Under the pieces are notes generated by a model. The model saw only the letters and a program-made list of their open reading frames with translations. It was not told where the DNA came from and searched no databases. A stretch of DNA of 64,000 bases from Janthinobacterium sp. 67 (lineage in GTDB: Bacteria > Pseudomonadota > Gammaproteobacteria > Burkholderiales > Burkholderiaceae_D), in contig NZ_PGES01000001.1 of the NCBI RefSeq assembly GCF_002797895.1, positions 1,674,001 through 1,738,000 of the forward strand, read 5' to 3'. Made by a program: the position numbers and the translations under genes. This document shows positions 2 through 17,344 of this stretch, piece after piece (the stretch's first letter is position 1; every line of letters starts with the position of its first letter).

Positions 2-685
2 CGCAGCCTGGGCGAGAACATCGCCGACGCCGTCTGCCTCGACGACAGCGTCATCCGCAAGGTATCGCAGCCGGTGGCCGACGGCGCCGCGCTGGCCGTA
101 TTGCGCGGCAACCTGTGTCCTGGCGGCGCCGTCATCAAGCCGTCGGCCGCGAATCCGAAATTCGCCAAGCACCGGGGCCGCGCCCTCGTGTTCGATTCGA
201 ACGCGGAAATGCTGGCGCAGATCCACGCGCCGGACCTGGACATCGATGAAAACACGGTGCTGATCCTGCGCAATGGCGGCCCCATCGGCGCGCCCGGCAT
301 GCCGGAATGGGGCAATCTGCCCGTGCCGAAAAAGCTGCTGCAGCAGGGCATACGCGACATGGTGCGCATCTCCGACGCGCGCATGAGCGGCACCCACTAC
401 GGCACCTGCGTGCTGCACGTGACGCCGGAAGCGGCCGTGGGCGGTCCGCTCGCTTTGGTGCGCAACGGCGACATGATCGAGCTGGACATCGCCGCGCGCA
501 GCCTGAACATGGACGTGACGGACGAGGAACTGGCGCGCCGCCGCGCCGAGTGGCAGGCGCCGGCGCAAAAATATGCGCGCGGCTACACCAAGCTGTACAT
601 GGAGCACGTGACGCAGGCCGACCAGGGCTGCGACCTCGACTTCTTGCTGGGCAACGCCGCCACGCCCGAGCCGCCGATCTTCTGA
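2..685 (+). CDS. IlvD/Edd-family dehydratase, C-terminal part (predicted 6-deoxy-6-sulfogluconate dehydratase)
   Basis: The gene enters from the left edge; 227 codons of the C-terminal part are present and end in TGA. Recognisable IlvD/Edd features are LRGNLCPGGAVIKPSA, the ALRNGGPIGAPGMPEW-like loop (here LRNGGPIGAPGMPEW) and the RISDARMSGTHYGTCVLHV block, which belong to the Fe-S sugar-acid dehydratases (sugar-acid branch rather than valine/isoleucine biosynthesis, judging by YARGYTKLYMEHV at the end). In this operon it most likely dehydrates 6-deoxy-6-sulfogluconate to 2-keto-3,6-dideoxy-6-sulfogluconate (KDSG). That substrate is inferred from the neighbouring sulfoquinovosidase; arabinonate or gluconate dehydratase would look the same in this fragment. 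The Fe-S cysteines of the N-terminal part lie outside the window. Confidence 0.85.
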   Translation, partial: RSLGENIADAVCLDDSVIRKVSQPVADGAALAVLRGNLCPGGAVIKPSAANPKFAKHRGRALVFDSNAEMLAQIHAPDLDIDENTVLILRNGGPIGAPGMPEWGNLPVPKKLLQQGIRDMVRISDARMSGTHYGTCVLHVTPEAAVGGPLALVRNGDMIELDIAARSLNMDVTDEELARRRAEWQAPAQKYARGYTKLYMEHVTQADQGCDLDFLLGNAATPEPPIF

Positions 686-726
686 CGCCGCCATCTTCCG
701 ACATATATAGAGAGCACAAAGTAATT

Positions 727-1539
727 ATGGATATCCTCGACAACCCCTTCCGCGCCTTGCTGGCGGACAAAGCAGTACCGCTGGGCAGCTGGCTGATGGC
801 CGGCACGCCCGTGACGGCCGAAGCCATGGGCTGCGCCGGTTTCGACTGGCTGGTGCTGGACATGGAACACGTGCCCATCGATTACCAGGATGCCTACCAG
901 ATCCTGCAGGCAGTGGGCGGCACACCGGCCTGCCCCGTCGTGCGCCTGGCCTGGAACGACCTGGTGCAGATCAAGCGCGCGCTCGACATCGGCGCGCAGA
1001 CCCTGATGTTCCCGTTCGTGGAAAGCGCGGCAGAAGCGCGCAGCGCCGTGGCCGCCACCCGCTATCCGCAGCCGGGCCAGGCTATTCCCGGCACGCGCGG
1101 TTTTGCCGCCATGCACCGCGCCAGCCGCTACGGCACCGTGCCCGACTACGCCACCCGCGCCAACGGCGCCGTCTTCTCGATTATCCAGCTGGAAACGCCT
1201 GCCGCCCTGGCGCAACTGGAAGAGATCGCCGCCGTCGATGGCGTCGACGCGCTGTTCGTCGGTCCCGGCGACCTGTCGGCGGCCATGGGCCATATCGGCA
1301 ATATCGGCCATCCCGACGTGCAGGCGGCGATTGCCGACGCGGCCCGCCGTGCCCGCGCCATCGGCAAACCCATCGGCATTGTCGGCCCTTCGCCGGAAAT
1401 GGTGCACACTTTCATTAGTTACGGCTATGACTACGTGGCCATCGCCTCGGACATGGGCATGATGATGCGCCAGGCCAATGCCTTTATCACGGCCCTGAAA
1501 CCGTCACTGGCGAAAGCCCTCGACACGGGCGCCTACTAA
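727..1539 (+). CDS. HpcH/HpaI-family aldolase (predicted KDSG aldolase)
   Basis: 270-residue class II (metal-dependent) pyruvate aldolase of the HpcH/HpaI family. The family active site is visible: base H48 in LDMEH (45-48), R73 in VRLAWND, metal ligands E156 (IIQLETP) and D182 (VGPGDLS), and the GTRGF loop (122-126) for the acid substrate. ATG 727 follows a GAGAGC-like ribosome site about 10 bases upstream; the frame is open further upstream but that part is a shadow of the dehydratase. It lies 41 bp after the dehydratase gene whose keto-acid product it would split. In the sulfo-ED scheme it cleaves KDSG to pyruvate and 3-sulfolactaldehyde (SLA). The family assignment is firm; the substrate is inferred from operon context. 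Confidence 0.85.
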   Translation: MDILDNPFRALLADKAVPLGSWLMAGTPVTAEAMGCAGFDWLVLDMEHVPIDYQDAYQILQAVGGTPACPVVRLAWNDLVQIKRALDIGAQTLMFPFVESAAEARSAVAATRYPQPGQAIPGTRGFAAMHRASRYGTVPDYATRANGAVFSIIQLETPAALAQLEEIAAVDGVDALFVGPGDLSAAMGHIGNIGHPDVQAAIADAARRARAIGKPIGIVGPSPEMVHTFISYGYDYVAIASDMGMMMRQANAFITALKPSLAKALDTGAY

Positions 1540-1603
1540 TCTATTTCTGTTGCAACGCACGTAGCGCGCTCAGACGCGTCATTCGCATCTTTTGGAGACA
1601 AGC

Positions 1604-2707
1604 ATGTCAGGTGTAAAACTGGAAAAGGTCGTCAAGAAGTACGACAACGGCGTCGAAGTCATTCATGGCATCGACCTGGAAATCAAGCAAGGCGAGTTCG
1701 TCGTCTTCGTGGGCCCTTCGGGCTGCGGCAAGTCCACCCTCATGCGCATGGTCGCGGGGCTCGAGTCCATCACGGGCGGCACCATCTCCATCGAAGGACA
1801 GGTCGTCAACGACCTGCCGCCGCGCGAGCGCGACATCGCCATGGTGTTCCAGGACTATGCGCTGTACCCGCACAAGTCCGTGTTCGACAACCTGGGCTTC
1901 GGCTTGAAGCTACGCAAGTTCCCGAAGGCGGAAATCGAACAGCGCGTGCGCGCCGCGGCCGCCATCCTGAAAATCGACCACTTGCTCGACCGCAAGCCGC
2001 GCGCCCTGTCCGGCGGCCAGCGCCAGCGCGTGGCCATGGGCCGCGCCATCGTGCGCCAGGCCAAGCTGTTCCTGTTCGATGAACCGCTGTCGAACCTGGA
2101 CGCCCTGCTGCGCTCGGAAATGCGCACGGAAATCAAGAAGCTGCACCAGCGCATCGGCGCCACGACGATTTACGTCACGCATGACCAGGTCGAGGCGATG
2201 ACCCTGGCCGAGCGCATCGTCGTGCTGTCCGGCGGCAACATCATGCAGGTCGGCACGCCGGACCAGATCTACAACGAACCCGTGTCGAAATTCGTCGCGG
2301 GCTTCACGGGCTCGCCGCCGATGAACTTCCTTGGCGCCAAGGTGGCGCGCAATGAAGCCGGCCAGTTTGATATCGTCCTGGGCAAGGCCCGCCTGGCCCT
2401 GCCGCTTGAGCGCCAGGCAGCCTGCGGCAAGCTCGACGGCCGCACCGTGGAATTCGGCATCCGCCCGGAAGACATCACCTTGGAAGCGGCCGGCAACGCC
2501 AGCGCCGCGCTGGCCGCCACCGTGGTCGTGGTCGAACCGCTGGGCGCGGAAACCCTGGTGATCTTCCAGTGCGAAGGCGGCGAACTGACGGCGCGCCTGC
2601 CACCCACGTTTGCACTGGCGCCAGGACAGCAAGTCACGGTACAGCTGGACATGGAGAAATTCCATCTGTTCGATCCGCAGGGCGGCGCGGTACTGCCATC
2701 CCGATAA
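1604..2707 (+). CDS. Sugar ABC transporter ATP-binding protein (UgpC/MsmK type)
   Basis: 367 residues. Walker A is GPSGCGKST (37-45), signature LSGGQ (135-139), Walker B LFLFDEP (D159, E160), H-loop in YVTHDQ, and a C-terminal OB/TOBE regulatory part from about residue 235, as usual for carbohydrate-uptake-1 ATPases. ATG 1604 is chosen over an in-frame TTG at 1592 because TTGGAGACAAGC gives a good ribosome site directly before it. It is followed 46 bp later by the binding protein and then two permeases, so the importer is complete. It energises uptake of the sulfosugar (SQ or its glyceryl glycoside) from the periplasm; substrate identity is inferred from the operon. Confidence 0.93.
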   Translation: MSGVKLEKVVKKYDNGVEVIHGIDLEIKQGEFVVFVGPSGCGKSTLMRMVAGLESITGGTISIEGQVVNDLPPRERDIAMVFQDYALYPHKSVFDNLGFGLKLRKFPKAEIEQRVRAAAAILKIDHLLDRKPRALSGGQRQRVAMGRAIVRQAKLFLFDEPLSNLDALLRSEMRTEIKKLHQRIGATTIYVTHDQVEAMTLAERIVVLSGGNIMQVGTPDQIYNEPVSKFVAGFTGSPPMNFLGAKVARNEAGQFDIVLGKARLALPLERQAACGKLDGRTVEFGIRPEDITLEAAGNASAALAATVVVVEPLGAETLVIFQCEGGELTARLPPTFALAPGQQVTVQLDMEKFHLFDPQGGAVLPSR

Positions 2708-2753
2708 GCCGCGCACAAGCGGCATTCCCATACCAAAACAGGAGACAAACATC

Positions 2754-4004
2754 ATGCGTATCAAATCCCTCGTCCTGGCGCTCGGCGCCACGTTCGTCCT
2801 TGCCACTGCGGCCCACGCGCAAACCGTCAAGGTCTTTGTCGGCGGCCAGGAGCGCCCCGAAGTCATGCGCGAACTGTTCGCCAAGTTCATGGCCGCCAAT
2901 CCCGGCGTCAAGATCGACCTGGAAACGGGCGGCGCCACGTCCGAGCTGCAGCAGAAATACCTGAACACGGTGCTGTCGGCCGGCGACTCGACCCTGGACG
3001 TGTTCCTGATCGACATCATCCGCCCGGCGCAATATGCCTCGGCAGGCTGGATCGAAAGCCTGGACAAATACCTGGGCGCCGACCGCGACAAGATCATGGG
3101 CCAGTACCTTCCCGCCTACAAGCAGGCGAATATGGTCGACAACAAGGTCGTCGCACTGCCCGCCTTTGCCGACGCCATGTTCCTCTATTACCGCAAGGAC
3201 TTGCTGGCCAAGTACAAGCTGGCGCCGCCGAAAACCTGGGATGAGCTGGCCACCGTGGCGCGCACCATCCAGGCCGGCGAAAAGAATCCGGAATTGCAAG
3301 GCATCAGCTTCCAGGGCAAGGCCATCGAAGGCGCCGTGTGCACCTTCCTGCTGCCGTACTGGAGCCAGGGCGGCGAGCTGGTCACCAATGGCAAGCTGAC
3401 CCTGGACAAGCCCAAGGCGGAAGCGGGCCTGGCCATGTGGAGCAAGCTGGTGCAGCAAGGCGTGGCCAAGAAAAACATCGCCGAAGTGGCCACCGACGAT
3501 ACGCGCAAGGAATTCCAGGCCGGCAACGTCTTGTTCGCCGTCAACTGGGGCTATGCCTGGAACCATTTCCAGGATGGCTCCGACAGCAGCGTGAAAGATA
3601 AAGTGGGCGTCGTCAGCCTGCCGGCCATGGCGGGCGGCAAGCCGGCCTCGTGCATCGGCGGCTGGCAGTGGGCCGTGTCTTCGTATTCGAAGAACAAGGA
3701 AGCGTCGGCCAAGCTGGTGCGTTGGCTGTCGAGTCCGGAAGTGTCGAAGCAGCTGGCCATCAAGGCCTCGAACCTGCCCGTCTACCCGTCCGTCTACCAG
3801 GACAAGGAAGTGCTGGCCGTCAATGGCTGGTTCGCCGATGCCCTGCCGGTGGTGCAAAGCGCCCGTTCGCGTCCTGTCACGCCGCGCTACAGCGAAGTGT
3901 CCGAAGCCGTGCGCGTCAACACGAATGCCGTGATGGCGGGCGTGAAAACGCCGGCGGCGGCCGTGGGCGAGATCGAAAACCGGGTCAAGCGCATCCTGCG
4001 CTAA
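2754..4004 (+). CDS. Extracellular solute-binding protein of the sulfosugar ABC importer
   Basis: 416 residues, family 1 solute-binding protein (MalE/UgpB-like). A clear Sec signal peptide (MRIKSLVLALGATFVLATAAHA) ends about residue 22-23 with an AxA site before QT. The mature part has the usual order: N-lobe start VKVFVGGQERPEVMRELF, the ligand-region sequence PAFADAMFLYYRKDLL, and the hinge/C-lobe segment CIGGWQWAVSSYSKN. ATG 2754 is preceded by CAGGAGACAAACATC. It delivers ligand to the two permeases downstream. The family also contains SmoF, the sulfoquinovosyl-glycerol binder of the Agrobacterium SMO pathway; whether this protein binds SQ or SQGro cannot be read from sequence by eye. Confidence 0.92.
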   Translation: MRIKSLVLALGATFVLATAAHAQTVKVFVGGQERPEVMRELFAKFMAANPGVKIDLETGGATSELQQKYLNTVLSAGDSTLDVFLIDIIRPAQYASAGWIESLDKYLGADRDKIMGQYLPAYKQANMVDNKVVALPAFADAMFLYYRKDLLAKYKLAPPKTWDELATVARTIQAGEKNPELQGISFQGKAIEGAVCTFLLPYWSQGGELVTNGKLTLDKPKAEAGLAMWSKLVQQGVAKKNIAEVATDDTRKEFQAGNVLFAVNWGYAWNHFQDGSDSSVKDKVGVVSLPAMAGGKPASCIGGWQWAVSSYSKNKEASAKLVRWLSSPEVSKQLAIKASNLPVYPSVYQDKEVLAVNGWFADALPVVQSARSRPVTPRYSEVSEAVRVNTNAVMAGVKTPAAAVGEIENRVKRILR

Positions 4005-4079
4005 CCGGCATGCGCCCGGCCGCCACGACGGCGGTCCGGGCGGCACACGCATACGCACACCGCAACAGACGAGGAAATC

Positions 4080-4994
4080 ATGAGGCAACGCACCCTGAAA
4101 AGCCGCATCACGGACCCCAGCGAAACGACGCTGGCCTGGGTCCTGCTGACGCCGGCGATTCTGTTTTTACTGCTGATCGTGGCCTACCCGGTCGGCAAAC
4201 TGATCTACAACAGCTTTTTCGACATCCGCCTGTCCGGCGGCAGCCTGCCCAGTTTCGTGGGCCTGGACAACTACAAGATGGCGCTGGAAGACAGCCTGTT
4301 CTGGAAGTCGCTGAAAAACACCATCATCATCACCGTCGTCACCGTGCCGGGCGCGCTGGTGGCGGGCCTGGGCCTGGCCATGCTGGCCAACATGCCGTTC
4401 AAATACCGCTGGCCCGTGCGCCTGGCGCTGCTGCTGCCGTGGGCACTGCCGCTCGCTTTCGTCGGCCTGATCTTCGCATGGTTCTTCCACAGCGAATACG
4501 GCCTGGTGAATGACATCATCCGCCGCATCGACCTGCTGATCCCCGGCCTGGGCTGGGAGCCGCAAATCTGGTTCAACTCGCCCGCGCTGACCATGGCCGC
4601 CATCTGCATCACGACCATCTGGAAAACCTCGTCGTTCATGGCGCTGATTTTGCTGGCCGGCCTGCAGACCATCCCCGCCTCGCTGTATGAAGCGGCCGAA
4701 GTGGACGGCGCCAGCAAGTGGAAGCAATTTACGGAAGTGACCCTGCCGCTGCTGGTGCCATCGATGCTGGTGGCGCTGATCTTCCGCACCCTGACGGCCA
4801 TCCAGTCCTTCGATATTCCGTACAACATGCCCGGCCCTGGCGATGAAACCAAGACCCTGGCCATGTACATCCAGTCCAATACGGTGGACTACCTTGATGT
4901 GGGCTACGGCTCGACCCTGGCCGTGTTCATGTTCCTGCTGTCGATGGCCACCACGTTCGTGTATCTGAAATATGTAAGAGGAGACAAAGAATGA
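4080..4994 (+). CDS. ABC sugar permease, MalF/UgpA type
   Basis: 304 residues with about six membrane segments; first one at TLAWVLLTPAILFLLLIVAYPVG (residues 18-40). The EAA loop that contacts the ATPase is SLYEAAEVDGASKWKQFTEVTLPLL. It pairs with the next permease, whose ATG overlaps this stop by 4 bp (ATGA), so the two are translationally coupled. A good AGGAAATC site precedes ATG 4080. Role: inner-membrane channel half for sulfosugar uptake. Confidence 0.92.
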   Translation: MRQRTLKSRITDPSETTLAWVLLTPAILFLLLIVAYPVGKLIYNSFFDIRLSGGSLPSFVGLDNYKMALEDSLFWKSLKNTIIITVVTVPGALVAGLGLAMLANMPFKYRWPVRLALLLPWALPLAFVGLIFAWFFHSEYGLVNDIIRRIDLLIPGLGWEPQIWFNSPALTMAAICITTIWKTSSFMALILLAGLQTIPASLYEAAEVDGASKWKQFTEVTLPLLVPSMLVALIFRTLTAIQSFDIPYNMPGPGDETKTLAMYIQSNTVDYLDVGYGSTLAVFMFLLSMATTFVYLKYVRGDKE

Positions 4995-5821
4995 GCGGCC
5001 TGTTTTCATCGAAGCGCCTGCGCTGGTTCGCCGCCGCGATCGTCATCCTCAACGGCGTCTTCCCCGCCCTGTGGATTCTTTTCACCTCGTTGAAAACCGA
5101 GAGCGAACTGACGCAAAAGCCGATCACCTACTGGCCGCACGAACCGACCATCGGCAATTTCATCTCCGCCTTCCAGGACCAGCCGCTGCTGACGTTCCTG
5201 ACCAACAGCCTGATCGTGGCCGGCCTGTCGACCCTGCTCAGCCTGTTCATCAGCGCGCTGGCCGCGTATGCGATCGCCCGTCTGCGCCTGCGTTTCCGCG
5301 GCCTGATCCTCACGGCCATCATCGGCGTGTCGATGTTCCCGCTGGTGACCCTGATGGTGCCGCTGTTCGAGATCATGCGCAGCCTGGGCTTGCTGAACTC
5401 CTACTGGGCGCTCGTGCTGCCGTACACGGTGCTGAACCTGCCGATTTGCACCCTGATGATGGTGAGCTTTTTCCAGGATATCCCGCGCGACATCGAGAAC
5501 GCGGCCATGCTCGACGGCTGCACCCGCATCAGCGCCCTGTGGCGCATCGTGCTGCCGCTGGCCGCGCCCGGCGTGGCGACGGCCGCCATCCTCGCCTTCG
5601 TCAATTCCTGGGACGAGTTCCTGCTGGCGCTGTCGATGAATTCGGCCGTGGCATACCGTACCCTGCCCGTCGGCATCCAGCTGTACCAGGGCGAGTTCGC
5701 CTTCCCGTGGCCGATCATTTCGGCGGCGCTGGTGGTGGCCATCGTGCCCATCGTCGTGCTGATCGTGATCTTCCAGGAAAAGGTCGTCAGCGGCCTGACC
5801 TCGGGCGGCTTGAAGGGCTGA
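4991..5821 (+). CDS. ABC sugar permease, MalG/UgpE type
   Basis: 276 residues, six predicted membrane segments, with the MalG-type N-terminus (LNGVFPALWILFTSLKTESEL) and EAA loop IPRDIENAAMLDGCTRISALWRIVLPL. Start overlaps the previous stop (ATGA at 4991-4994), and the ribosome site GAGGAGACAAAG lies in the end of the upstream gene. It completes the importer. The next gene (mutarotase) begins 8 bp after the stop, which ties transport and catabolism into one transcription unit. Confidence 0.92.
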   Translation: MSGLFSSKRLRWFAAAIVILNGVFPALWILFTSLKTESELTQKPITYWPHEPTIGNFISAFQDQPLLTFLTNSLIVAGLSTLLSLFISALAAYAIARLRLRFRGLILTAIIGVSMFPLVTLMVPLFEIMRSLGLLNSYWALVLPYTVLNLPICTLMMVSFFQDIPRDIENAAMLDGCTRISALWRIVLPLAAPGVATAAILAFVNSWDEFLLALSMNSAVAYRTLPVGIQLYQGEFAFPWPIISAALVVAIVPIVVLIVIFQEKVVSGLTSGGLKG

Positions 5822-5829
5822 GGTAAGAC

Positions 5830-6726
5830 ATGGACCATCAGTCTCCCTTCACCCTCGCGCACGGCGACTGCCGCGCCGACGTCCACCCGGCCACGGGTGG
5901 CGCGCTGGCGGCGCTCCGCTGGCGCGGGCGCGACATCCTGCGCGCCGCGCCGGCCAACGCCGGTGTGCGGCAGATGGCCTGCTATCCGCTGGCGCCGTAT
6001 TCCAACCGCATCGGCAACGCCATGCTGCAAGCCGATGGGCATACGCATGCGCTGCGCGCCAACTTCCCGCCCGAGCCGCACAGCATCCACGGCTTTGGCT
6101 GGCAGCGCGCCTGGCACGTGGCGGCGCGCACATCCGACAGCGCCGAACTGCTGCTCGTGCATGGCGGCGACGCGGACTGGCCATTTGCCTGCACGGTGCA
6201 GCAAACCGTGCTGCTCGACGATGCCGGCCTGCGCCTGACCTTATCGGTGCGCAATGACGACACGCGCGCCATGCCGGTAGGCCTGGGTTTCCACCCCTAT
6301 TTTCCGCTGGCCCCTGGCCTGCGCCTGCAGGCGCAGTGGGATGGCGTGTGGAGCATGGGCGCCGACCGCTTGCCGGCCGGCCTGGCACCCGTGGCGCAAG
6401 CGTCGCCATTCGCCACGCCGCAGCCGGTGGCCGGCTGGCAGGCGGACAACTGCTACAGCGGCTGGATGGGCCGCGCCAGCCTCGATTACGGTAATTACAG
6501 CGTGCAGCTGTCGGCCAGCGACAATTGCGGCCATTTGGTCTGCTTCGCGCCGAACGACGAGCGCGGCTTCATTGCGCTGGAACCCGTCACGCATGCGAAT
6601 AACGCGTTCGCGCTGGCCGCGCGCGGCGCGCAGGGCACGGGCATGCGCGTGCTGGCGCCCGGCGAAAGCCTGCACATCGCCATGCGCCTGGCCATGAAAG
6701 ACACTGCGGAGGCCCAGCATGCGTGA
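5830..6726 (+). CDS. Aldose 1-epimerase family protein (predicted sulfoquinovose mutarotase)
   Basis: 298 residues, GalM/YihR-like beta-sandwich epimerase. Active-site positions can be seen: R60 (YSNRIGN), H87 (HSIHGFGW), H155 (GFHPYF) and the base E251 (LEPVTHANN). The enzyme interconverts anomers of a free sugar. Sulfoquinovosidase releases alpha-SQ and the next dehydrogenase is likely to use the beta form, so a mutarotase is expected here; E. coli yihR and the P. putida SQ1 cluster carry an equivalent gene. It overlaps the following lactonase gene by 8 bp. Specificity for SQ is inferred from neighbours. Confidence 0.85.
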   Translation: MDHQSPFTLAHGDCRADVHPATGGALAALRWRGRDILRAAPANAGVRQMACYPLAPYSNRIGNAMLQADGHTHALRANFPPEPHSIHGFGWQRAWHVAARTSDSAELLLVHGGDADWPFACTVQQTVLLDDAGLRLTLSVRNDDTRAMPVGLGFHPYFPLAPGLRLQAQWDGVWSMGADRLPAGLAPVAQASPFATPQPVAGWQADNCYSGWMGRASLDYGNYSVQLSASDNCGHLVCFAPNDERGFIALEPVTHANNAFALAARGAQGTGMRVLAPGESLHIAMRLAMKDTAEAQHA

Positions 6727-7627
6727 ATGGCAAGCCGAACTCGTGCTTGATGCGCGCGCCCAGCTGGGCGAATGCCCGCTGTGGAGCGTGGCCGAGCAGT
6801 GTCTGTACTGGATCGACATCGCCGGACGCCGTTTGCACCGCTACGATCCGGCCACGAACCTCGACCGCGTCTGGTGGGTGCCGTGCGAGCCGGGCTGCAT
6901 CGCCCTGGCTGAAAAGGGCGGCCTGGTGGCGGCCCTGCGCGACGGTTTCTACCGCTTTTATCCGCAGGAAGGCTTGCTCGACAAGCTGGCCGATGCACCG
7001 TACGACAGTAGCGACATGCGTTTCAACGATGGCCGCTGCGACAGCGCCGGGCGTTTCTGGGCCGGCGCCATGTACGAGCCGCGCACGGCGGAACTGGCCG
7101 CCATGTTTTGCCTGGAACGGGGCGCCACGCGCCTGGGCTGGGGACCGCAACAAGGCTTCGGCGTCAAGGTCAGCAACGGCCTCGCGTTCGCGGCCGATGG
7201 AGCATCACTGTTCCAGTCCGACACGCCGAACCACGTGATCTACCGTTTCGCGTTTGACGCGGCCAGCGGCCAGGTGGGCGAGCGCCAGGTGTTCGCGCGC
7301 CTGACCCTCAAGGGCGAAGAAGCCGTGTATGGCGGCCGTCCCGATGGCGCGGCAATCGACGCCGAAGGCTGCTACTGGAGCGCGCAGTACGAAGGCGGCC
7401 GGGTGCTGCGCTTTTCGCCGCAGGGCGAAATCATCGGCATCGTGCGCGTGCCCGTCACGCGCCCCACCATGATCGCCTTTGGCTGCGCCGACCTGCGCAC
7501 CCTGTACATCACCAGCGCGCGCGAAGGCGCGGCGGACGACGAACTGGCGCGCCAGCCGCAGGCCGGCGGCCTCTTTGCCGTGCGCCTGGACGTGGCAGGC
7601 CGCGCCGAACCCCTTTACCGGGATTGA
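6719..7627 (+). CDS. SMP-30/gluconolactonase family lactonase (predicted 6-deoxy-6-sulfogluconolactonase)
   Basis: 302 residues, six-bladed beta-propeller lactonase of the SMP-30/regucalcin family. Metal ligands of the family are present: E18 (LGECPLW), N103 in RFNDGRCD, N153 in VSNGLAF and D209 in GGRPDGAAID; R101 fits the substrate-binding arginine. It would hydrolyse 6-deoxy-6-sulfogluconolactone, the product of SQ dehydrogenase, to the open sulfogluconate used by the dehydratase. The start lies inside the end of the mutarotase gene (8-bp overlap) with a GCGGAGG site at 6708-6714. A generic sugar lactonase of a non-sulfonated pathway would look alike; context decides. Confidence 0.87.
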   Translation: MREWQAELVLDARAQLGECPLWSVAEQCLYWIDIAGRRLHRYDPATNLDRVWWVPCEPGCIALAEKGGLVAALRDGFYRFYPQEGLLDKLADAPYDSSDMRFNDGRCDSAGRFWAGAMYEPRTAELAAMFCLERGATRLGWGPQQGFGVKVSNGLAFAADGASLFQSDTPNHVIYRFAFDAASGQVGERQVFARLTLKGEEAVYGGRPDGAAIDAEGCYWSAQYEGGRVLRFSPQGEIIGIVRVPVTRPTMIAFGCADLRTLYITSAREGAADDELARQPQAGGLFAVRLDVAGRAEPLYRD

Positions 7628-7655: not shown

Positions 7656-8444
7656 ATGAACGCCAACATCACTCTCTACCCCAGCCTGCAGGGCCGCGTG
7701 GTCTTCGTCTCCGGCGGCGGCTCCGGCATCGGCGCCTCGCTGGTCGAACACTTCGCCCTGCAAGGCGCGCAAGTGGCTTTTTGCGATATCGACCGCGACG
7801 CCAGCGCCGCCCTGGCCGCGCGCCTGGCGCCCCTGTGCCGCCATGCGCCGCATTTCATCTACAGCGACATCCGCGACATCGCCGCCTACCAGGCCAGCCT
7901 GGCCGACGTCGAGGCGCGTTTCGGCGCCATCCGCGTGCTGCTCAATAACGCGGGCCGCGACGACCGCCACAGCCTGGCCGAACTGACGCCCGAGTACTGG
8001 GACAACTGCCTGGCCCTGAACCTCAAGCACCACGTGTTCGCCATCCAGCAGGTGGCGCCCGGCATGGCGGCAGCCGGCGGCGGCTCCATCATCAACCTCG
8101 GCTCCATTTCCTGGATGCGCGGGCGTCCCAACCTGGTCGGCTACACCACGTCCAAGGCCGGTATCGCGGGCCTGTCGCGCACCCTGGCGCGCGAACTGGG
8201 CGAACAGAATATCCGCGTCAACGCCATCGCCCCGGGCGCCATCGCCACGGACCGCCAGGCCGCGCTGTGGCGCGATCCGGAAGAAGACCGGCGTTTCATC
8301 GAACTGCAATGCCTGAAATACCGGCTCGACGCGGGCCACGTGGCGCGCACGGCCCTGTTCCTGGCGGCCGACGATTCGGACGGCATCACGGGCCAGAACA
8401 TCATCGTCGACGCCGGCCTCGCCCAAGTCTCTGTCGCGGGTTAA
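7656..8444 (+). CDS. SDR-family dehydrogenase (predicted NAD-dependent sulfoquinovose dehydrogenase)
   Basis: 262-residue classical short-chain dehydrogenase. The cofactor glycine motif GGGSGIG is at 20-26, acidic D44 after beta-2 (FCDID) favours NAD, NNAG at 97-100, and the catalytic set is S150, Y163 and K167 (YTTSK). ATG 7656 has CCGAGGACAGC before it. In the pathway it oxidises SQ at C1 to the lactone. The same family supplies fucose, arabinose and glucose 1-dehydrogenases, so only the operon assigns the substrate. Gap to the lactonase gene is 28 bp. Confidence 0.86.
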   Translation: MNANITLYPSLQGRVVFVSGGGSGIGASLVEHFALQGAQVAFCDIDRDASAALAARLAPLCRHAPHFIYSDIRDIAAYQASLADVEARFGAIRVLLNNAGRDDRHSLAELTPEYWDNCLALNLKHHVFAIQQVAPGMAAAGGGSIINLGSISWMRGRPNLVGYTTSKAGIAGLSRTLARELGEQNIRVNAIAPGAIATDRQAALWRDPEEDRRFIELQCLKYRLDAGHVARTALFLAADDSDGITGQNIIVDAGLAQVSVAG

Positions 8445-9929: not shown

Positions 9930-9993
9930 TTATTTAATTAGGCAAGGCAGGGATCAGCAACAATACACCTATAAAAACACAGGAGACAAGATC

Positions 9994-11394
9994 ATGCAAA
10001 CGACGTTACGCAAGACCACATTGGCCGCGGCCATCACGGGCGCCCTTTTCTCGGCATCATTTGTTAGCGCTAACGCGCGCGCCGACGAACTGAGCGACAT
10101 GAAAGCCATGCTGGCCCAGTTGCAGGACCGGGTGGCGCAGATGGAAGCGAAGGCTGCCCAGCCAGCGCCAGCAGCAGCGATGGCGGCCGCACCGGCATCA
10201 TCGGCGGCGGCCCCGATAAAACCCGTCACCGGCTTCAACTGGAAGCTGTACGGCCGTGGCGACATCGGCTACACGGTCTCGCGCGGCAAGGACGCCAGCG
10301 GGCGCCAGCTGACCAACCACCGCCTGAACCAGGGCGAGATGGCCAGCCGCCTGGGCCTGACGGGCGCCTGGGTCTTCAGCGATGAATACAAGGCCATCTT
10401 CGGCGTCGAGACGGGTCTGAACCTGTTCAACGGCAACGCGGGCGGCGGCACGCAAAACAACACCACCTCGTCCGTGCTGTTCAACCGCGGTTCCACCGTC
10501 GGCTTTGCGTCGACCACCTGGGGCTCGGTCGAAGGCGGCACCATGTACATGGCGCCGTTCTGGGTCTCGCTGGGCGCCGACCTGGCGTCGGCGCACAACT
10601 ACGGCGCCAACGATTTCAGCGCCCTGTTTTCGCTCACGCGCCCCGAATCGCTGGGCCGCTACCTGAAAGACCCCGTGACGGGCAACGCCAGCAAGACGAC
10701 TAGCCTGGCCGGCAACAACTCGGGCACGGCCCTGTTCTATGGCAACGCGCTGCGCTACCGCAGCCCCACCTGGAACAATATTTCGGCCGAGGTATCGTAT
10801 TCGGCTGGCCAGCAGGCGTCTTCCGCCACCGACCTGGAAAACGATGGCCGCAGCTGGGCCGCCAACGTGCTGTACAAGAAGGGCGACCTGTTCCTCGGCT
10901 ATGCGCACATGGATTACCAGCAGAGCAACGACATCAGCACGGCCGGCACGCCGAACTTCATCAAGCGCAACCAGGTCACGGACATCGTCGGCGCGCGCTA
11001 CAAGTGGAACGACTTTACCCTGGGCGGCTCCTACACGTCCTACCGCGTGTCGAACGCGGGCGGCTATGCGGCCGACGCCTTCGGCGTGTCGGGCGCATAT
11101 GACATCGGCAAGCACCGCATCGAAGGCAGCCTGGCGCACATCAGCTATGACGGCGCCAACGCCAAAGGCGCTTTCGGCACGAATACGGGCGATGGCGTGG
11201 GCAAGCCAAAGTCGACGGCCTACTCGCTGGGCTACCTGTACAACTTCCAGCCTACCCTGTCGTTCTATGCGTATGCCACGCGCATCGCCAACAACAGCCA
11301 CGCCAAGCTGGGCGTATTGCAGTTCCGGGGGGACAATAACTACTTCGGCTACAGCCCCGTCGAGCTGACCGCCGGCATGTTCCTCGTCTTTTAA
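9994..11394 (+). CDS. Gram-negative porin (predicted sulfosugar entry channel)
   Basis: 466 residues. Signal peptide to about residue 31 (TLAAAITGALFSASFVSANARA), then a short coiled-coil (LSDMKAMLAQLQDRVAQMEAKA), an Ala/Pro-rich linker of about 35 residues, and a 16-strand-type porin barrel beginning FNWKLYGRGDIGYTVSRG and ending in a C-terminal aromatic (MFLVF), as required for BAM insertion. The N-terminal coiled coil plus linker resembles porins that anchor to peptidoglycan or trimerise through this region. It sits inside the SQ operon between SLA dehydrogenase and sulfoquinovosidase, so it probably provides the outer-membrane route. ATG 9994 follows ACAGGAGACAAGATC. Confidence 0.85.
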   Translation: MQTTLRKTTLAAAITGALFSASFVSANARADELSDMKAMLAQLQDRVAQMEAKAAQPAPAAAMAAAPASSAAAPIKPVTGFNWKLYGRGDIGYTVSRGKDASGRQLTNHRLNQGEMASRLGLTGAWVFSDEYKAIFGVETGLNLFNGNAGGGTQNNTTSSVLFNRGSTVGFASTTWGSVEGGTMYMAPFWVSLGADLASAHNYGANDFSALFSLTRPESLGRYLKDPVTGNASKTTSLAGNNSGTALFYGNALRYRSPTWNNISAEVSYSAGQQASSATDLENDGRSWAANVLYKKGDLFLGYAHMDYQQSNDISTAGTPNFIKRNQVTDIVGARYKWNDFTLGGSYTSYRVSNAGGYAADAFGVSGAYDIGKHRIEGSLAHISYDGANAKGAFGTNTGDGVGKPKSTAYSLGYLYNFQPTLSFYAYATRIANNSHAKLGVLQFRGDNNYFGYSPVELTAGMFLVF

Positions 11395-11463
11395 TTAGTG
11401 CAGTAACCCCGGCCCGCCATGCGCCACCACGCGGGCGGCCGGTTTTCACAGGAGTTGATCGTC

Positions 11464-13485
11464 ATGCAGTACACACTACACCAGGAAAATGACAGCGTCG
11501 CCCTGCGCTGCGCCGGCCGCTTGCTGCTGCGCCACAGTCCCGCTGCGCCGTGCGTGTTCGTCGGCCAGGGCCGCGAAAGCATGGAAATGTACCGCGGTAA
11601 CTTCGAGATCGAGGATTACGTCGAGGAGCGCAATGCCCTGCGCGCGCTGGCCGTCACCGAGGACGATGGCGCCACCACCCTGCGCTTTGCGCGCCATGCG
11701 GGCGAGACACCGCAACTGGTGCTGGCCGTGCAGGCAACGCCGCATGGCGTGCACCTGGTGGTGCGCTATGCGGCGCCGGGCTGGAACCGCCTGTGGCTGC
11801 GCCTGCCGGCGGAACAGGATGAACATGTGTGGGGCTGCGGCGAGCAGATGTCGTACTTCGACCTGCGCGGGCGCCACTTCCCCCTGTGGACGTCGGAGCC
11901 GGGCGTGGGCCGCGACAAGTCGACGCATTTGACGTGGCAGGCGGACGTGACGTCCAAGTCGGGCGGCGACTACTATCACACGAATTATCCGCAACCGAGC
12001 TTCATCTCTTCGCAGCGTTACTGCCTGCATGCGGAAACGACGGCGTATGCGGACTTCGATTTCCGCCAGCCCGACTTCCACGAGCTGCAATTCTGGGCCA
12101 TGCCAGAGCGCCTGGAATTCATGCTGGCCGATACCTTCGCCGACCTGGTCGGCGTCGTCTCGCAGCGCTTCGGCCGCCAGCCGCAATTGCCTGCATGGCT
12201 GCAAAATGGCGCCATGCTGGGCCTGAAAGGCGGCGAGGAACATGCGCGCGCCATCCTCGCGCAGGCGCAGGAACACGGCTTGCCCGTCAGCGCCCTGTGG
12301 TGCGAAGACTGGGTGGGCTTGCGCCAGACCTCGTTCGGCAAACGCTTGTTCTGGGACTGGCGCTGGCAGCCGCAGCGCTATCCTGACCTGAAAAACTGGA
12401 TCGCCGACCTGGCCACGCAGGACATCCGCTTCCTCGGCTACGTCAATCCCTACCTGTGCAACGACGGCACCCTGTATCAGGAAGCGCTGCGGCAGGGCTT
12501 TCTGGCGACAAGCATGGATGGCGGCGCCTACCTGGTCGACTTCGGCGAATTCGATTGCGGCGTCGTCGACTTCACCAATCCGGCGGCCGCCTTGTGGTTC
12601 GAGGAACGCATCCTGCGCCAGGAAATGCTCGATTTCGGCCTGTCGGGCTGGATGGCCGATTTCGGCGAATACCTGCCGATCGACCTGCGCCTGCACAATG
12701 GCGCCGACGCGCGCCTGATGCACAACGCGTGGCCGACCCTGTGGGCCGAAGTCAATGCGCGCGCCATCGAGCGGGCCGGCAAGACGGGCGACGCCACCTT
12801 CTTCATGCGCGCCGGCTACACGGGCGTGCAGGCGCACTGCCCGCTGCTGTGGGCGGGCGACCAGTCCGTCGACTTCAGCCGCCACGACGGTTTGCAGACG
12901 GTGATCTGCGGCGCCCTGTCGTCCGGCCTCCTGGGCAATGCCTACCACCACAGCGATATCGGCGGCTATACGAGCTTGTTCAGCAACCTGCGCACGGCCG
13001 AACTGTTCCAGCGCTGGACGGAGATGGCCGTGTTCACGTCGATGATGCGCACGCACGAAGGCAACCGTCCCGACGAAAACTTCCAGTTCTACCAGGATGA
13101 AGAGGTGTTCCGCCACTTCGCCCGCATGACGCGGCTGCACGTGGCGCTGGCACCCACCATCCGCGCCCTGGCCGAAGAGGCCGTGGCGCGCGGCCTGCCG
13201 CTGCAGCGCCCGCTGTTCCTGCACTATGAACACGACCGCGCCACCTACGCCATCCAGGACCAGTACCTGTTCGGCCCCGACTTGCTGGTGGCGCCTGTGC
13301 ATGCGGCCGGTGCCGCGCGCTGGAGCGCCTACCTGCCGCAGGGCGACGCCTGGATCCACCTGTGGAGCGGCACGGTCTTCGACGGCGGCCAGCGCGTGGA
13401 AGTCGATGCGCCGCTGGGCCAGCCGCCCGTCTTCGTGCGGCGCGGTTGCGCGCAGCAGGACTTCTTCCTGTCGCTGGCGAAATGA
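11464..13485 (+). CDS. yihQ: Sulfoquinovosidase (GH31, YihQ-like)
   Basis: 673 residues, no signal peptide, so cytoplasmic. It matches the layout of E. coli YihQ (678 residues) from end to end: MYRGNF, GCGEQMSYFDLRGRHFPLWTSE, GVGR-K, GGDYY, FGEF, GWMADFGEYLP, FMRAG, WAGDQ, SDIGGYT, MMRTHEGNRP. The nucleophile is D399 and the acid/base D466. Sulfonate-binding positions, shifted 6-7 from YihQ numbering, are K255, E281, R294 (GKR), W297 and Y502. This is the KERWY motif known from Agrobacterium sulfoquinovosidase, replacing QQRWY of E. coli. It hydrolyses alpha-sulfoquinovosides such as SQ-glycerol to SQ. ATG 11464 follows CAGGAGTTGATCGTC. This gene fixes the pathway assignment of the whole operon. 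Confidence 0.94.
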   Translation: MQYTLHQENDSVALRCAGRLLLRHSPAAPCVFVGQGRESMEMYRGNFEIEDYVEERNALRALAVTEDDGATTLRFARHAGETPQLVLAVQATPHGVHLVVRYAAPGWNRLWLRLPAEQDEHVWGCGEQMSYFDLRGRHFPLWTSEPGVGRDKSTHLTWQADVTSKSGGDYYHTNYPQPSFISSQRYCLHAETTAYADFDFRQPDFHELQFWAMPERLEFMLADTFADLVGVVSQRFGRQPQLPAWLQNGAMLGLKGGEEHARAILAQAQEHGLPVSALWCEDWVGLRQTSFGKRLFWDWRWQPQRYPDLKNWIADLATQDIRFLGYVNPYLCNDGTLYQEALRQGFLATSMDGGAYLVDFGEFDCGVVDFTNPAAALWFEERILRQEMLDFGLSGWMADFGEYLPIDLRLHNGADARLMHNAWPTLWAEVNARAIERAGKTGDATFFMRAGYTGVQAHCPLLWAGDQSVDFSRHDGLQTVICGALSSGLLGNAYHHSDIGGYTSLFSNLRTAELFQRWTEMAVFTSMMRTHEGNRPDENFQFYQDEEVFRHFARMTRLHVALAPTIRALAEEAVARGLPLQRPLFLHYEHDRATYAIQDQYLFGPDLLVAPVHAAGAARWSAYLPQGDAWIHLWSGTVFDGGQRVEVDAPLGQPPVFVRRGCAQQDFFLSLAK

Positions 13486-13492
13486 GCGTGGC

Positions 13493-14254
13493 ATGAGCGT
13501 GGCGTCGCACCTGCTGTTCCTGGCCTGCGTGGCGCTGGCCAGCGTGGCGCAGAACCTGACGGGATTTGCCTTCGGCCTGATCCTGCTGGGCCTGACGGCC
13601 GTGCTGCACCTGGCCAGCCTGGGCGACGTGGCCAACGTCGTCAGCGTGCTGGTGCTGGTCAACGCCGCCATCACGTTTGGCCGCACGCGCCCGCGGCTGG
13701 CCTGGCCCGTGTTCGGCCCCTCGCTGGCCATCAGCCAGCTGGGCGTGGGCGCGGGCGTGGCCCTGCTGGGCTGGTTCAGCGCGCAGCAAGTGAGCCTGCT
13801 GCGCTTCCTGCTCGGCTGCGCCATCGTCGTCTGCGCCTTCATGCTGGTGCTGCGCGCCAGCGCGCGTGCGCGGCAGTCAAGCCTGCCCTCGTTTCTGTTC
13901 TTCAGCGGCGTATCCGGCGTGATGGGCGGCCTGTTCGCCAGCGCCGGCCCACCCATGGTGTACCACCTGTACCGCCAGCCATGGCCGGCCGACATGATCC
14001 GCCATTCGCTGATCGTGCTGTTCGCCGCGAATGCCGTGCTGCGCCTGGCCCTCGTGCTGGCGCACGGCCAGTTCAGCATGACGGCCTTCTGGCTGACCCT
14101 CGAGGCCTTGCCGCTGGTGATGGGCTTGACGTGGCTGGCGCGCCGCCACCCTTCGCGCCTGCCCATCGAACACGTGCGCCGCGCCGTCTTCGTGCTGCTG
14201 CTGATCGCCGGCCTGGCCCTCGTGCTGCCGCCCGTGCTGTCGCTGCTTGCCTGA
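13493..14254 (+). CDS. TauE/SafE-family exporter (predicted sulfolactate exporter)
   Basis: 253 residues, very hydrophobic, about eight membrane segments, with the two-fold repeat of the TauE/SafE (DUF81) family: first half LLFLACVALASVAQNLTGFAFGLILLG, second half FFSGVSGVMGGLFASAGPPMVYHLY. Members of this family export sulfite or C2/C3 sulfonates. It starts 7 bp after the sulfoquinovosidase stop. Bacteria using sulfo-ED excrete 3-sulfolactate, and a TauE-like gene occurs in their clusters, so export of sulfolactate is the best guess. No sulfolactate-degrading gene is seen nearby. An ATG at 13482 overlapping the previous stop is in another frame. Confidence 0.85.
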   Translation: MSVASHLLFLACVALASVAQNLTGFAFGLILLGLTAVLHLASLGDVANVVSVLVLVNAAITFGRTRPRLAWPVFGPSLAISQLGVGAGVALLGWFSAQQVSLLRFLLGCAIVVCAFMLVLRASARARQSSLPSFLFFSGVSGVMGGLFASAGPPMVYHLYRQPWPADMIRHSLIVLFAANAVLRLALVLAHGQFSMTAFWLTLEALPLVMGLTWLARRHPSRLPIEHVRRAVFVLLLIAGLALVLPPVLSLLA

Positions 14255-14297
14255 GACGGCACTTAATTTTCTTTTACTTTTACCAGACGAGTCTTCC

Positions 14298-15857
14298 ATG
14301 TCCGCTTCCCGCTTTTCCTCCCTGCCCGCCGACTGCGACCTGCTGGTCGTCGGCGGCGGCATCAATGGCGCCGGCATCGCGCGCGACGCGGCCGGCCGCG
14401 GCCTGCGCGTGGTGCTGTGCGAACAGCACGACCTGGCGCAGCACACCTCGTCCGCGTCCACCAAGCTGATACACGGCGGCCTGCGCTACCTCGAATACTA
14501 TGAATTCAAGCTGGTGCGCAAGGCGCTGCAGGAACGCGAAGTGCTGCTGCGCGCCGCGCCCCACATCATGTGGCCGATGCGCTTCGTCATGCCGCACGAC
14601 GCCGCTCAGCGCCCCGCCTGGATGATACGCGCGGGCCTGTTCCTGTATGACCACCTGGCCAAGCGGGCCTTTTTGCCCGCCTCGCAAGGCATCGCGCTGG
14701 ACACCCACGCGGCAGGCGCGCCGTTGAAAGCCGGCTACCGCAAGGGCTTCGTGTACTCCGACGGCTGGGTCGACGACGCCCGCCTGGTGGTGCTCAATGC
14801 GCTCGGCGCACAGGAACACGGCGCGCACATCCTCACGCGCACGGCCTGCGTCGATGCACGCCGCGATGGCGGCGCCTGGCAAGCCACCCTGCAAGCCGGG
14901 GATGGCCAGCGCCAGGTGCTGCGCGCGCGCGCCATCGTCAACGCGGCGGGACCGTGGACGGCGCAATTCGCGGGCGCGGCCGGCGGCGGCAAGACGCAGG
15001 GGCTGCGCCTGATCAAGGGCAGCCACATCATCGTGCCGCGCCTGTTCGAGCATCCGCACGCCTACATCTTCCAGAACCCGGACCAGCGCATCATCTTCGC
15101 CATCCCCTACCAGGACGACTTCACCCTGATCGGCACCACGGACGAGGAATACAAGGGAGAGGTCAGCCAGGTGAAGATCAGCCAGATGGAAATCGATTAC
15201 CTGTGCCAGGCCGCGAACCGCTATTTCAAGCGCGAGATTTCTCCCGCCGACGTCGTGTGGACGTATTCGGGCGTGCGCCCGCTGCTCGACGACAGCGCGC
15301 AGAACGCCTCGGCCGTCACGCGCGACTACCTGCTGGAGGTGGCGCGCGGCGATGTGGCGACGGGTGCGCCCCTGCTCAATATCTGGGGCGGCAAGATCAC
15401 CACCTACCGCAAGCTGGCCGAGGAAGCACTGGGCTTGCTGGCGCCCCTGCTGGACAATCGCGCCGCGGCGTGGACGGCCGAGGCGCCTCTGCCCGGCGGC
15501 GACCTGCGGCAGGAAAACCAACTGGTGGACAGCCATGATTTCGACGCCTTTCTCGGCCGCTTCCAGCGCGACCACGCCTGGCTGCCGCCCGCGCTGGCGC
15601 GCCGCTATGCGCGCGCCTACGGCAGCCGCGCCGCGCGCCTGCTGACGGGCGCCACCTCGATGGCCGACCTGGGCGCGCAGCTGGCGCCCGGCCTGTACGA
15701 GGCCGAAGCGTACTATCTGATCGAGGTGGAATGGGCCAGGAGCAGCGACGACATCCTGTGGCGGCGCAGCAAGCTGGGATTGCGCTGCACGCCGGCCGAC
15801 GTGGCGCGCCTGCAGCAGTGGCTGGCCGTCCATCTGGCGCAAGAGGTGGCGGCATGA
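14298..15857 (+). CDS. glpD: Aerobic glycerol-3-phosphate dehydrogenase
   Basis: 519 residues. FAD Rossmann motif [19 protein letters not shown] (residues 14-33), family signature [23 protein letters not shown]-binding C-terminal piece [17 protein letters not shown], and a C-terminal DAO_C-type helical domain. It oxidises glycerol 3-phosphate to dihydroxyacetone phosphate at the membrane and passes electrons to quinone. ATG 14298 is chosen; a TTG 51 bp upstream lacks a ribosome site. The gene follows the exporter by 43 bp and overlaps glpK by 4 bp (ATGA). Its place at the end of the SQ operon suggests it handles glycerol released from SQ-glycerol. Confidence 0.95.
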
Positions 15858-17344
15858 CCTATCTGCTGGCCTTCGACCAGGGCACCTCCAGTTCGCGCAG
15901 CATGGTCTTCGATGAATCAGGCGCCATCGTCGCCGTGGCGCAGCGCGAGTTCCGCCAGCTGTTCCCGCAGCCGGGCTGGATCGAGCATGATCCGATGGAA
16001 ATCTGGCACAGCCAGATCGAGACCTGCCGCGCAGTGCTGGCCAAGACGGGCCTGCGGGCCGATGCGCTCGGCGCGCTGGGCATCACCAACCAGCGCGAAA
16101 CGACCGTGGTGTGGGACCGCGCCACGGGCGAACCCGTCTACAACGCCATCGTCTGGCAAGACCGCCGAACGGAAGCGCTGTGCGAGGACTTGCGCGCGCG
16201 CGGCCTGGCCGGCGCCATCCATGCCAAGACGGGCCTGGTGCTCGACCCGTATTTTTCCGGCACCAAGCTGCGCTGGATACTCGACGCCGTGCCCGGCGCC
16301 CGCGCGCGGGCCATGCGCGGCGAACTGGCCTTCGGCACCATCGACACGTGGCTGGCGTGGAAGATGACGGGCGGACGCCTGCACGTGAGCGACGTCAGCA
16401 ACGCTTCGCGCACCATGCTGTGGAACCTGCATGAAGGCTGCTGGGATGCCCAGCTGCTCGATTGGCTGGGCATTCCCGCCAGCCTGCTGCCATCCGTCCA
16501 TCCATCGAGCCACGTGTATGGCGAAACGGATGCGGATGTACTGGGCAGCCCCGTCATCATCGGCGGCATCGCCGGCGACCAGCAGGCGGCGCTGTTCGGC
16601 CAGACCTGCTTCAAGCCGGGCATGGCCAAGAATACCTATGGCACGGGCTGCTTCTTGCTGCTCAATACGGGCGAGCAGTGCGCGCAATCGCAGCATGGAC
16701 TGATCAGCACGGCCGCCTGCCAGGTGGGCGCGCAGCCCACGTACGCGCTCGAGGGCAGCGTTTTCATCGGCGGCGCCGTGGTGCAATGGCTGCGCGATGG
16801 CCTCGGTGCCATCGGCCACGCGGGCGAAGCGGAAGGCCTGGCCGCCTCCGTGCCCGATTCCGGCGGCGTGGTCTTCGTGCCGTCGTTTACGGGACTCGGT
16901 GCGCCGTACTGGGTACCGTCGGCCAAGGGCGCCATCCTGGGCCTGAGCCGCGGCAGCACGGTGGGCCACATCGCCCGCGCCGCATTGGAAGCGATCGCCT
17001 TCCAGAGCGCCGCCCTGCTGGGCGCCATGACGCGCGACGCGCAAGCACCGATCACGGAACTGCGCGTGGACGGCGGCGCCTGCGCCAACAACCTGCTGCT
17101 GCAATTCCAGGCCGACTTGCTGGGCATCCCCGTCGTGCGCCCACAGGTGATCGAAACGACGGCGCTGGGCGCCGCCTACCTGGCCGGTCTGGCCATCGGC
17201 CTGTATCAAGGCACCGACGAACTGGCGTCGCACTGGCGCGCCGACCGAACGTTCTTGCCCACCATCGGGCGCGACCAGGCGGCCAGCCTGATGCAGCAGT
17301 GGGAGGTGGCCGTGCGGCGGTTTACGGGGAATGGAGAACACTGA
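15854..17344 (+). CDS. glpK: Glycerol kinase
   Basis: 496 residues, FGGY kinase. N-terminal phosphate loop [15 protein letters not shown] (residues 7-21), [30 protein letters not shown], catalytic-region [27 protein letters not shown] (catalytic Asp) and [14 protein letters not shown] are all present. It phosphorylates glycerol with ATP. Translation is coupled to glpD by an ATGA overlap. There is no glpF facilitator in the cluster, which fits glycerol being generated inside the cell rather than imported. The stop is followed by 11 bp before repeat element R1. Confidence 0.96.

Follow-up and report, generated by a model that had tools for sequence, protein, structure and literature searches.

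Background

The locus treated here is a run of fifteen genes at the start of a 64,000-nucleotide stretch of Janthinobacterium sp. 67 (the window; bases 1,674,001 to 1,738,000 of a 6.19-Mb contig, in a genome of 6.45 Mb), and the question it raises is which sugar these genes degrade, what becomes of the remainder of the molecule and how the whole is controlled. An earlier reading made from the sequence only had proposed a sulfo-Entner-Doudoroff (sulfo-ED) operon for sulfoquinovose (SQ), a sugar counted among nature's most abundant organosulfur compounds (PMC12890257). We now hold with great confidence that this is a sulfo-ED operon, for sulfoquinovosyl glycerol (SQGro), and we find it very probable that the fuller explanation, in which the pathway is combined with use of the glycerol and with the regulation described below, is correct as a whole. 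Such an operon would couple the use of both halves of SQGro, the sugar and the glycerol, and some SQ genes, as here, easily receive arabinose or succinate-semialdehyde names.

Gene content and probable substrate

Gene families were assigned with NCBIfam and Pfam, and positions upstream of the window are given in the frame of the upstream stretch L003, where L003:10001 is window base 1. The fifteen genes lie on the same strand in the order dehydratase, aldolase, ABC ATPase, binding protein, two permeases, mutarotase, SMP-30 lactonase, short-chain dehydrogenase (SDR), aldehyde dehydrogenase, porin, GH31 glycosidase, TauE-type exporter, GlpD and GlpK. Intergenic gaps range from -8 to 75 bases, and the 14 genes contained entirely in the window are free of inner stops. 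The sequence-only reading was thus right about fifteen rightward, closely spaced genes, and the enzyme and transport families it listed are all matched, GlpD and GlpK being the two (the last) that it did not name. Of the extent it gave, 2..17344, the end stands, being the GlpK stop, and the start was only the window edge: the dehydratase begins with a TTG codon at L003:8949, 1,051 bases 5' of the window, which truncates this first gene, and the operon spans about -1051 to 17344.

The nearest solved relatives point to SQ. In a search of solved structures, the GH31 protein scores 957 bits against the Agrobacterium sulfoquinovosidase (SQase; PDB 5ohs/5ohy) and 738 against E. coli YihQ, with two unspecifically named GH31 entries in between (8r56 at 854, 6pnr at 793) and all others at 150 or less. 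Aligned with YihQ (5aed), it has the same residue at five of five positions, the two catalytic Asp and the Arg, Trp and Tyr that bind the sulfonate (which we take to be Asp405, Asp472, Arg301, Trp304 and Tyr508 in YihQ numbering); its counterpart in Janthinobacterium sp. LB2P70 is 97% identical. The binding protein matches SmoF (7nbz) at 508 bits, the next structure reaching 213, and the SDR matches the SQ dehydrogenase of P. putida (PpSQDH) at 281 bits, followed by 4lvu (249) and 7wwx (244), whose structure records state no substrate. Eleven PpSQDH residues for comparison are named in PMC12133307; ten fall within the alignment and all ten, including Arg152 and Arg154, are conserved in our SDR, Gln260 lying beyond the alignment.

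For a wider comparison we took the best 80 of at least 581 SQase loci in a genome collection, with gene content read by tblastn in flanks of at most 10 kb, so that long operons are truncated, as are loci at contig ends. Arg152, which binds the sulfonate, occurs in the SDR of the window and in 40/40 SQase-adjacent SDRs (at least 45% identity); at this position two paralogues from the same genome have Leu and Met, and 4lvu has Leu. Of the 40 SDRs, 35 retain Arg154 and 39 retain Arg101. In the SDR tree, 42 SQ-pathway rows are split from three others with support 100/97 (the program flagged long branches), and in the dehydratase tree, from which the rows L096 and L097 were omitted, 37 SQase-linked rows are split from four others with support 100/100. 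Both proteins of the operon fall on the SQase-linked side, as the sequence-only reading, which had proposed this phylogenetic check, would have it. The dehydratase is 64-74% identical to those of SQase loci and at most 54% identical to its own paralogues; it belongs to PF00920, the type used for SQ, and an SMP-30 lactonase and an HpcH/HpaI aldolase are both in the operon. The solved relatives, the SDR arginine, the trees and the dehydratase family all support the sulfo-ED pathway.

We regard the gene content, the family placement and the diagnostic residues as established, and we infer from them, for each protein, a substrate. SQGro would cross the porin, be bound by the SmoF-like protein and be imported by the ABC transporter; the GH31 enzyme would then cleave it to SQ and glycerol, and the mutarotase would interconvert the SQ anomers. 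The SDR would oxidise SQ to the lactone, which the lactonase would open, and dehydratase and aldolase would yield pyruvate and sulfolactaldehyde; the GabD-like enzyme would convert the latter to sulfolactate, to be exported by the TauE-type protein. The roles of the porin and of the exporter, as entry for SQGro and exit for sulfolactate, are assumed rather than read from their sequences, and growth on SQ with release of sulfolactate is likewise what the gene content would predict.

The regulator and its two candidate operators

How might the operon be controlled? A divergent LacI-type regulator gene lies outside the window, at L003:7587-8621 on the minus strand. Upstream of the dehydratase there is a promoter-like TTGACA-18-TATATT (11/12 matches), and 15 bases further a palindrome, O1 (TGTTAGCGCTAACA), which is overlapped by a promoter-like site on the minus strand. 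With at most one mismatch there are only two such sites in the genome, O1 and O2 (TGTTAGCGCTAACG, window 10062-10075), which agree at 13 of 14 bases and lie 11,204 bases apart, the second in the signal-peptide code of the porin gene; arithmetic puts the chance expectation for 6.4 Mb at about one such site, though not inside the operon. The pattern TGTTAGCGCTAACR (palindrome TGTTAGCGCTAAC(A/G)) occurs in exactly those 10 of 40 Janthinobacterium genomes that have the operon, and in 0/30 of the others; each of the ten has it at two places, the promoter and, 11.2 kb downstream, the porin signal-peptide code. This conservation and genome-wide exclusiveness are established and give a testable regulatory handle, a palindrome that marks the operon-bearing genomes exactly among these 40; the repression and the inducer described next are proposals.

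We propose that the divergent GntR-like LacI protein represses the operon from O1, just after the predicted promoter, which we think quite probable, and that it probably represses also from O2, inside the porin gene, a weaker proposal that we nevertheless favour over its contrary. For the inducer, our best candidate is sulfogluconate, at about even chances: it is proposed because it resembles 6-phosphogluconate, and it would release the repressor as an analogue of the gluconate and 6-phosphogluconate that release GntR of Pseudomonas, a repressor of the LacI family (PMC12195362, PMC5902321). If so, a gluconate-type switch would have been reused for a sulfonated sugar. GntR of P. aeruginosa and P. 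plecoglossicida, as described in these two articles, resembles our regulator in being its best NCBIfam match, in the AGCGCT core, which is the core of the Pseudomonas GntR footprint (PMC12195362), and in repressing its own gene. Our regulator differs from it in adjoining sulfo-ED genes and in having a second candidate site in coding sequence 11.2 kb away, and, what weighs against a simple assignment, in scoring only 300 bits with the GntR model (NF052440), below the cut-off of 400. Its nearest paralogue in the same genome is 30% identical.

The main alternative is that O2 is no operator, the palindrome in the porin gene being a by-product of coding and O1 alone at work; we consider this rather unlikely. 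Porin codons 24-27 (GTT AGC GCT AAC), where O2 lies, are identical in 10/10 operons while residues 17-23 and 28-29 vary, and they include codons that are rare in the 12 operon stretches (GTT, 0.6% of Val; GCT, 2% of Ala). Yet codon-invariant columns are common in this gene, 106 of the 265 amino-acid-invariant columns being codon-invariant anyway (Met and Trp left out), and the product of the per-residue rates (3/10, 19/29, 9/35 and 11/21) gives a chance of about 0.03, so that codon conservation alone makes a weak case for O2; its exclusiveness and its match to O1 carry the case. We found no sigma-70-type promoter near the porin, nor any promoter match from 600 to 17700 (2.3 on average in shuffles), and over the same range there was no excess of terminator-like sites (15 versus 12.3 in shuffles). 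Many loci also share a palindrome in the dehydratase gene, AGCCAGCGCTGG(T/C)T, which codes for Ser-Gln-Arg-Trp and resembles coding bias; this, too, speaks for a by-product. On the side of a working O2 stands Pandoraea L016, which has the closest regulator (49%) and near-copies of the palindrome before two separate units, TGTTAGCGGTAACA between lacI and the dehydratase gene and TGTTAGCGCTACCA before the lactonase gene. These are the only two sites with at most one mismatch to the Janthinobacterium palindrome in 81 other loci (79 from the best-80 set plus L144 and L145), where four control palindromes gave none. An operator conserved inside signal-peptide code would, if true, mean that DNA and protein constraints act on the same bases. 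In one operon (L116, of genome G004) the porin frame has 387 amino acids, against 463-472 elsewhere, and O2 is retained.

AGCGCT palindromes in other genera

The AGCGCT core recurs in other genera. A LacI relative (at least 34% identity) is present in 29 of the 81 other loci, and in 20 of these 29 there is an AGCGCT palindrome (at most one arm mismatch) within 470 bases around the lacI start, compared with 31/580 windows drawn at random from the same loci; of the 16 CG-centred cores, the second most frequent reaches 4/29. Perfect CG-centred palindromes of at least 12 bases occur upstream of lacI in nine of the 29, and all nine have the AGCGCT core. The count of 20, with its arm mismatch, was partly guided by this earlier result, and the counts are not independent because the loci are related. 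It should also be said, against a general rule, that L016 is among the 20 only through a site in dehydratase coding sequence, and that nine LacI-bearing loci have no palindrome in the tested stretch. Among these nine, sites precede the dehydratase gene in L038, L048 and L051, and in L049 one lies 286 bases before the SQase gene; L020, L023, L056 and L145 have palindromes only within coding sequence, and L021 has none. The outer arms differ between lineages: several loci of Rhizobium, Bradyrhizobium and Elstera have TAAT..ATTA, many others have the TCG type, and the arms here are TGTT..AACA.

These data lead us to a tentative generalisation, which we hold with less than even confidence: a distinct LacI repressor of GntR-like type may sense sulfogluconate and govern, via AGCGCT, the sulfo-ED operons of Proteobacteria, and in Janthinobacterium a second working copy of the site in the porin code may either gate the genes for entry, SQase, exporter and glycerol use separately or loop the operon. 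Among the titles listed in literature searches on sulfoquinovose with LacI, repressor, operator or palindrome, none concerns sulfo-ED regulation.

As side observations, TCGTAGCGCTACGA-type sites occur in pairs 26 to 210 bases apart, before the dehydratase gene and elsewhere, in L048 and L051 (Halomonadaceae) and L017 (Pseudomonas), which suggests cooperative or looped repression there. The palindrome AGCCAGCGCTGG(T/C)T stands near the dehydratase start in many loci (e.g. L014:12870 and L022:5783) and shares the AGCGCT core; it is probably codon bias.

The glycerol genes

The glpD-glpK pair is terminal in nine of the ten Janthinobacterium operons. A canonical glpK (59% identical to that of the operon) and glpD (66%) lie elsewhere in the genome (L012), clustered with ABC-transporter genes, and a DeoR-type regulator gene adjoins the canonical glpD on the opposite strand. 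The pair in the operon has no adjacent transport gene, so it fits glycerol freed inside the cell; we propose that no glycerol uptake gene accompanies it because the operon's own GlpK and GlpD would consume the freed glycerol on the spot. That this second pair salvages the glycerol of SQGro is, on the gene arrangement, probable. The idea of glycerol salvage is not new, because a glycerol kinase in the SQ cluster of E. rectale, with a proposed use for the glycerol of SQGro, is already in print (PMC11968277). Literature searches that paired sulfoquinovose with either of the two glycerol enzymes listed no paper which, by title and start of abstract, treats sulfo-ED.

One could instead regard glpD-glpK as a hitch-hiker that serves ordinary glycerol use and has nothing to do with SQGro, which we find distinctly unlikely. 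The pair is missing from one of the ten operons (L118, genome G009), in which the TauE gene is followed by a convergent aminotransferase gene, and this is a point against our explanation, as is the complete glycerol cluster elsewhere in the genome. Against the hitch-hiker, the pair ends the same gene run and comes without transport genes, the kinase of the E. rectale cluster is a precedent, as far as PMC11968277 describes it, and similar genes are found near other SQases. At 45% identity or more, GlpK is present in 9/80 of the best SQase loci (L013, L030, L031, L032, L045, L048, L057, L066, L080) and GlpD in 10/80 (L013, L048, L051, L057, L067, L068, L070, L071, L078, L080), with weaker Glp matches in L045 and L082 excluded from the counts. 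L013 is Janthinobacterium itself (same genome as L116), and some of the genes are on the opposite strand or several kb off (L048, L051, L057, L068, L080). For a 5-Mb genome, arithmetic gives a chance of about 0.4% that one gene falls in any particular 22-kb stretch; GlpK and GlpD are enriched near SQases over this expectation, which was calculated rather than measured, and the loci are related. GlpK and GlpD trees, with one canonical copy, were too thinly sampled to trace the origin of the pair.

Other sugars considered

Some observations do not sit easily with SQ. The fitting NCBIfam model for the dehydratase, above its cut-off, is L-arabinonate dehydratase, and the SDR and the aldolase reach no sulfo-specific NCBIfam model. 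The aldehyde dehydrogenase matches its best solved relative, the Rhizobium sulfolactaldehyde dehydrogenase RlGabD, at 720 bits and E. coli GabD at 701 and exceeds the cut-off of the succinate-semialdehyde dehydrogenase (SSADH) model TIGR01780; the sulfonate-binding arginines proposed for RlGabD in PMC10599462 are of no help because 720 versus 701 bits leaves SSADH unseparated. In a first dehydratase tree, which included the very long paralogue rows L096 and L097, the SQase-linked rows needed two changes instead of one. The warning of the sequence-only reading, that automatic annotation would probably call this an arabinose or fucose pathway, is right for some genes: misleading NCBIfam names, all of them above a cut-off, attach to the dehydratase (L-arabinonate dehydratase), to the GH31 protein (alpha-glucosidase) and, as SSADH, to the aldehyde dehydrogenase.

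Could the operon then degrade a plain aldose, L-arabinose or L-fucose, by an Entner-Doudoroff-type route? The name of the dehydratase model would favour it. We judge this very improbable in view of the YihQ-type GH31 enzyme with its sulfonate-binding residues, the SmoF-like binding protein and Arg152 of the SDR, and of the dehydratase tree, where the protein stands apart from the L-arabinonate dehydratase of R. leguminosarum and from its own paralogues. The genome has further copies of both enzymes elsewhere (dehydratases 54, 50 and 39% identical and weaker ones; SDRs 50 and 46%), two pairs of them close together, and these presumably serve plain sugars. It is on the SDR residues and the SDR and dehydratase trees that we reject arabinose or fucose. 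Sulfofucose, the C4 epimer of SQ, is more improbable still: its pathway, as described for Paracoccus wurundjeri (PMC12421959), shares the SDR, lactonase and aldolase families and an ABC importer, but its dehydratase is of PF13378/PF02746 and that of the operon is PF00920, the SQ type, which excludes it, and the GH31 enzyme is a YihQ-type sulfoquinovosidase.

Relation to known systems

Sulfo-ED operons are already known, and the pathway part of our locus is a further instance; the two-operator layout and the glycerol pair are its newer part. The pathway of P. putida SQ1 (PMC12133307, PMC12890257) has the same enzyme set, and our SDR is closest to its PpSQDH; from what these articles describe, the difference is that here a single uninterrupted run also holds the ABC importer, porin, exporter and glpD-glpK. 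Several AGCGCT sites occur in a Pseudomonas relative (L017), whose flanks give no match to the glp genes or the ABC importer. With R. leguminosarum SRDI565, named in PMC12890257 and judged here by Rhizobium loci such as L022, our operon has in common a SmoEFGH-like importer, dehydratase, aldolase, lactonase, SQ dehydrogenase, SQase, TauE, sulfolactaldehyde dehydrogenase and LacI. The same importer and enzymes are found in several Rhizobium-type loci; in the stretch retrieved for L022, mutarotase, porin, GlpD and GlpK find no match.

Herbaspirillum belongs, we assume, to the same bacterial family as Janthinobacterium. The sulfo-ED operon of H. seropedicae AU14040 contains a mutarotase with demonstrated SQ activity (PMC5902678), and the family-mates L144 and L145 have another gene order and no full importer or glp match, with TCGCAGCGCTGCGA in L144. 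Agrobacterium supplies the best solved relatives of the GH31 and binding proteins, but it is described as running the sulfo-SMO pathway and not sulfo-ED (PMC13372026, PMC9594981). The sulfo-SFT cluster of Eubacterium rectale (PMC11968277) shares with ours a glycerol kinase and its proposed use for the glycerol of SQGro; pathway and phylum differ, and here kinase and GlpD together close a sulfo-ED operon.

Across the family, such a sulfoquinovosidase occurs in 12 of the 392 genomes covered, which belong to 2 of 44 genera. The operon is found in 10 of 40 Janthinobacterium genomes, with identical gene order in all ten. For sulfoquinovose together with Janthinobacterium, a literature search listed PMC8674285.

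Table 1. Features of the sulfo-ED operon and its upstream region; functions are predicted, and positions are those of the window unless prefixed L003.
Feature	Position	Strand	Basis
6-deoxy-6-sulfogluconate dehydratase, 3' part (578 aa whole)	1..685	+	PF00920 + PF24877
KDSG aldolase (HpcH/HpaI)	727..1539	+	PF03328; 49-64% to aldolases of dehydratase-bearing SQase loci
ABC importer ATPase, SmoE/UgpC-like	1604..2707	+	NCBIfam; homologues in SQase loci
SQGro-binding protein, SmoF-like	2754..4004	+	SmoF 508 bits
ABC permease 1	4080..4994	+	family models; homologues in SQase loci
ABC permease 2	4991..5821	+	family models; homologues in SQase loci
SQ mutarotase, aldose-1-epimerase family	5830..6726	+	PF01263; homologues in sulfo-ED loci
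Sulfogluconolactonase (SMP-30)	6719..7627	+	PF08450; homologues in SQase loci
SQ dehydrogenase (SDR)	7656..8444	+	PpSQDH best, 281 bits
Sulfolactaldehyde dehydrogenase, GabD-like	8475..9929	+	RlGabD 720 bits, E. coli GabD 701
Porin	9994..11394	+	PF13609
Candidate operator O2 TGTTAGCGCTAACG, porin signal-peptide code, codons 24-27	10062..10075	.	palindrome search
Sulfoquinovosidase, GH31 YihQ type	11464..13485	+	structure matches, residues
TauE-type sulfonate (sulfolactate?) exporter, substrate inferred	13493..14254	+	PF01925
Second glycerol-3-phosphate dehydrogenase GlpD	14298..15857	+	NF008899, 790 bits vs cut-off 360; 66% to canonical copy
Second glycerol kinase GlpK	15854..17344	+	TIGR01311 above cut-off; 59% to canonical copy
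Candidate operator O1 TGTTAGCGCTAACA	L003:8858-8871		outside window, upstream of dehydratase
Promoter-like TTGACA-18-TATATT	L003:8813-8842		outside window

Two minor observations may be added. In L045, from a bin labelled Opitutae (Verrucomicrobiota), a sulfoquinovosidase 67% identical to ours is immediately followed by a GlpK of about 57%, without sulfo-ED genes, an arrangement due to horizontal transfer or mis-binning. Elsewhere in the genome of our strain there are two genes for Xsc (sulfoacetaldehyde acetyltransferase), at G000:C1:6165276-6167018 (L147) and 6175172-6176914 (L146); as they score 1092 and 1093 bits, far above the cut-off of 676, the organism probably also degrades C2 sulfonates such as taurine.

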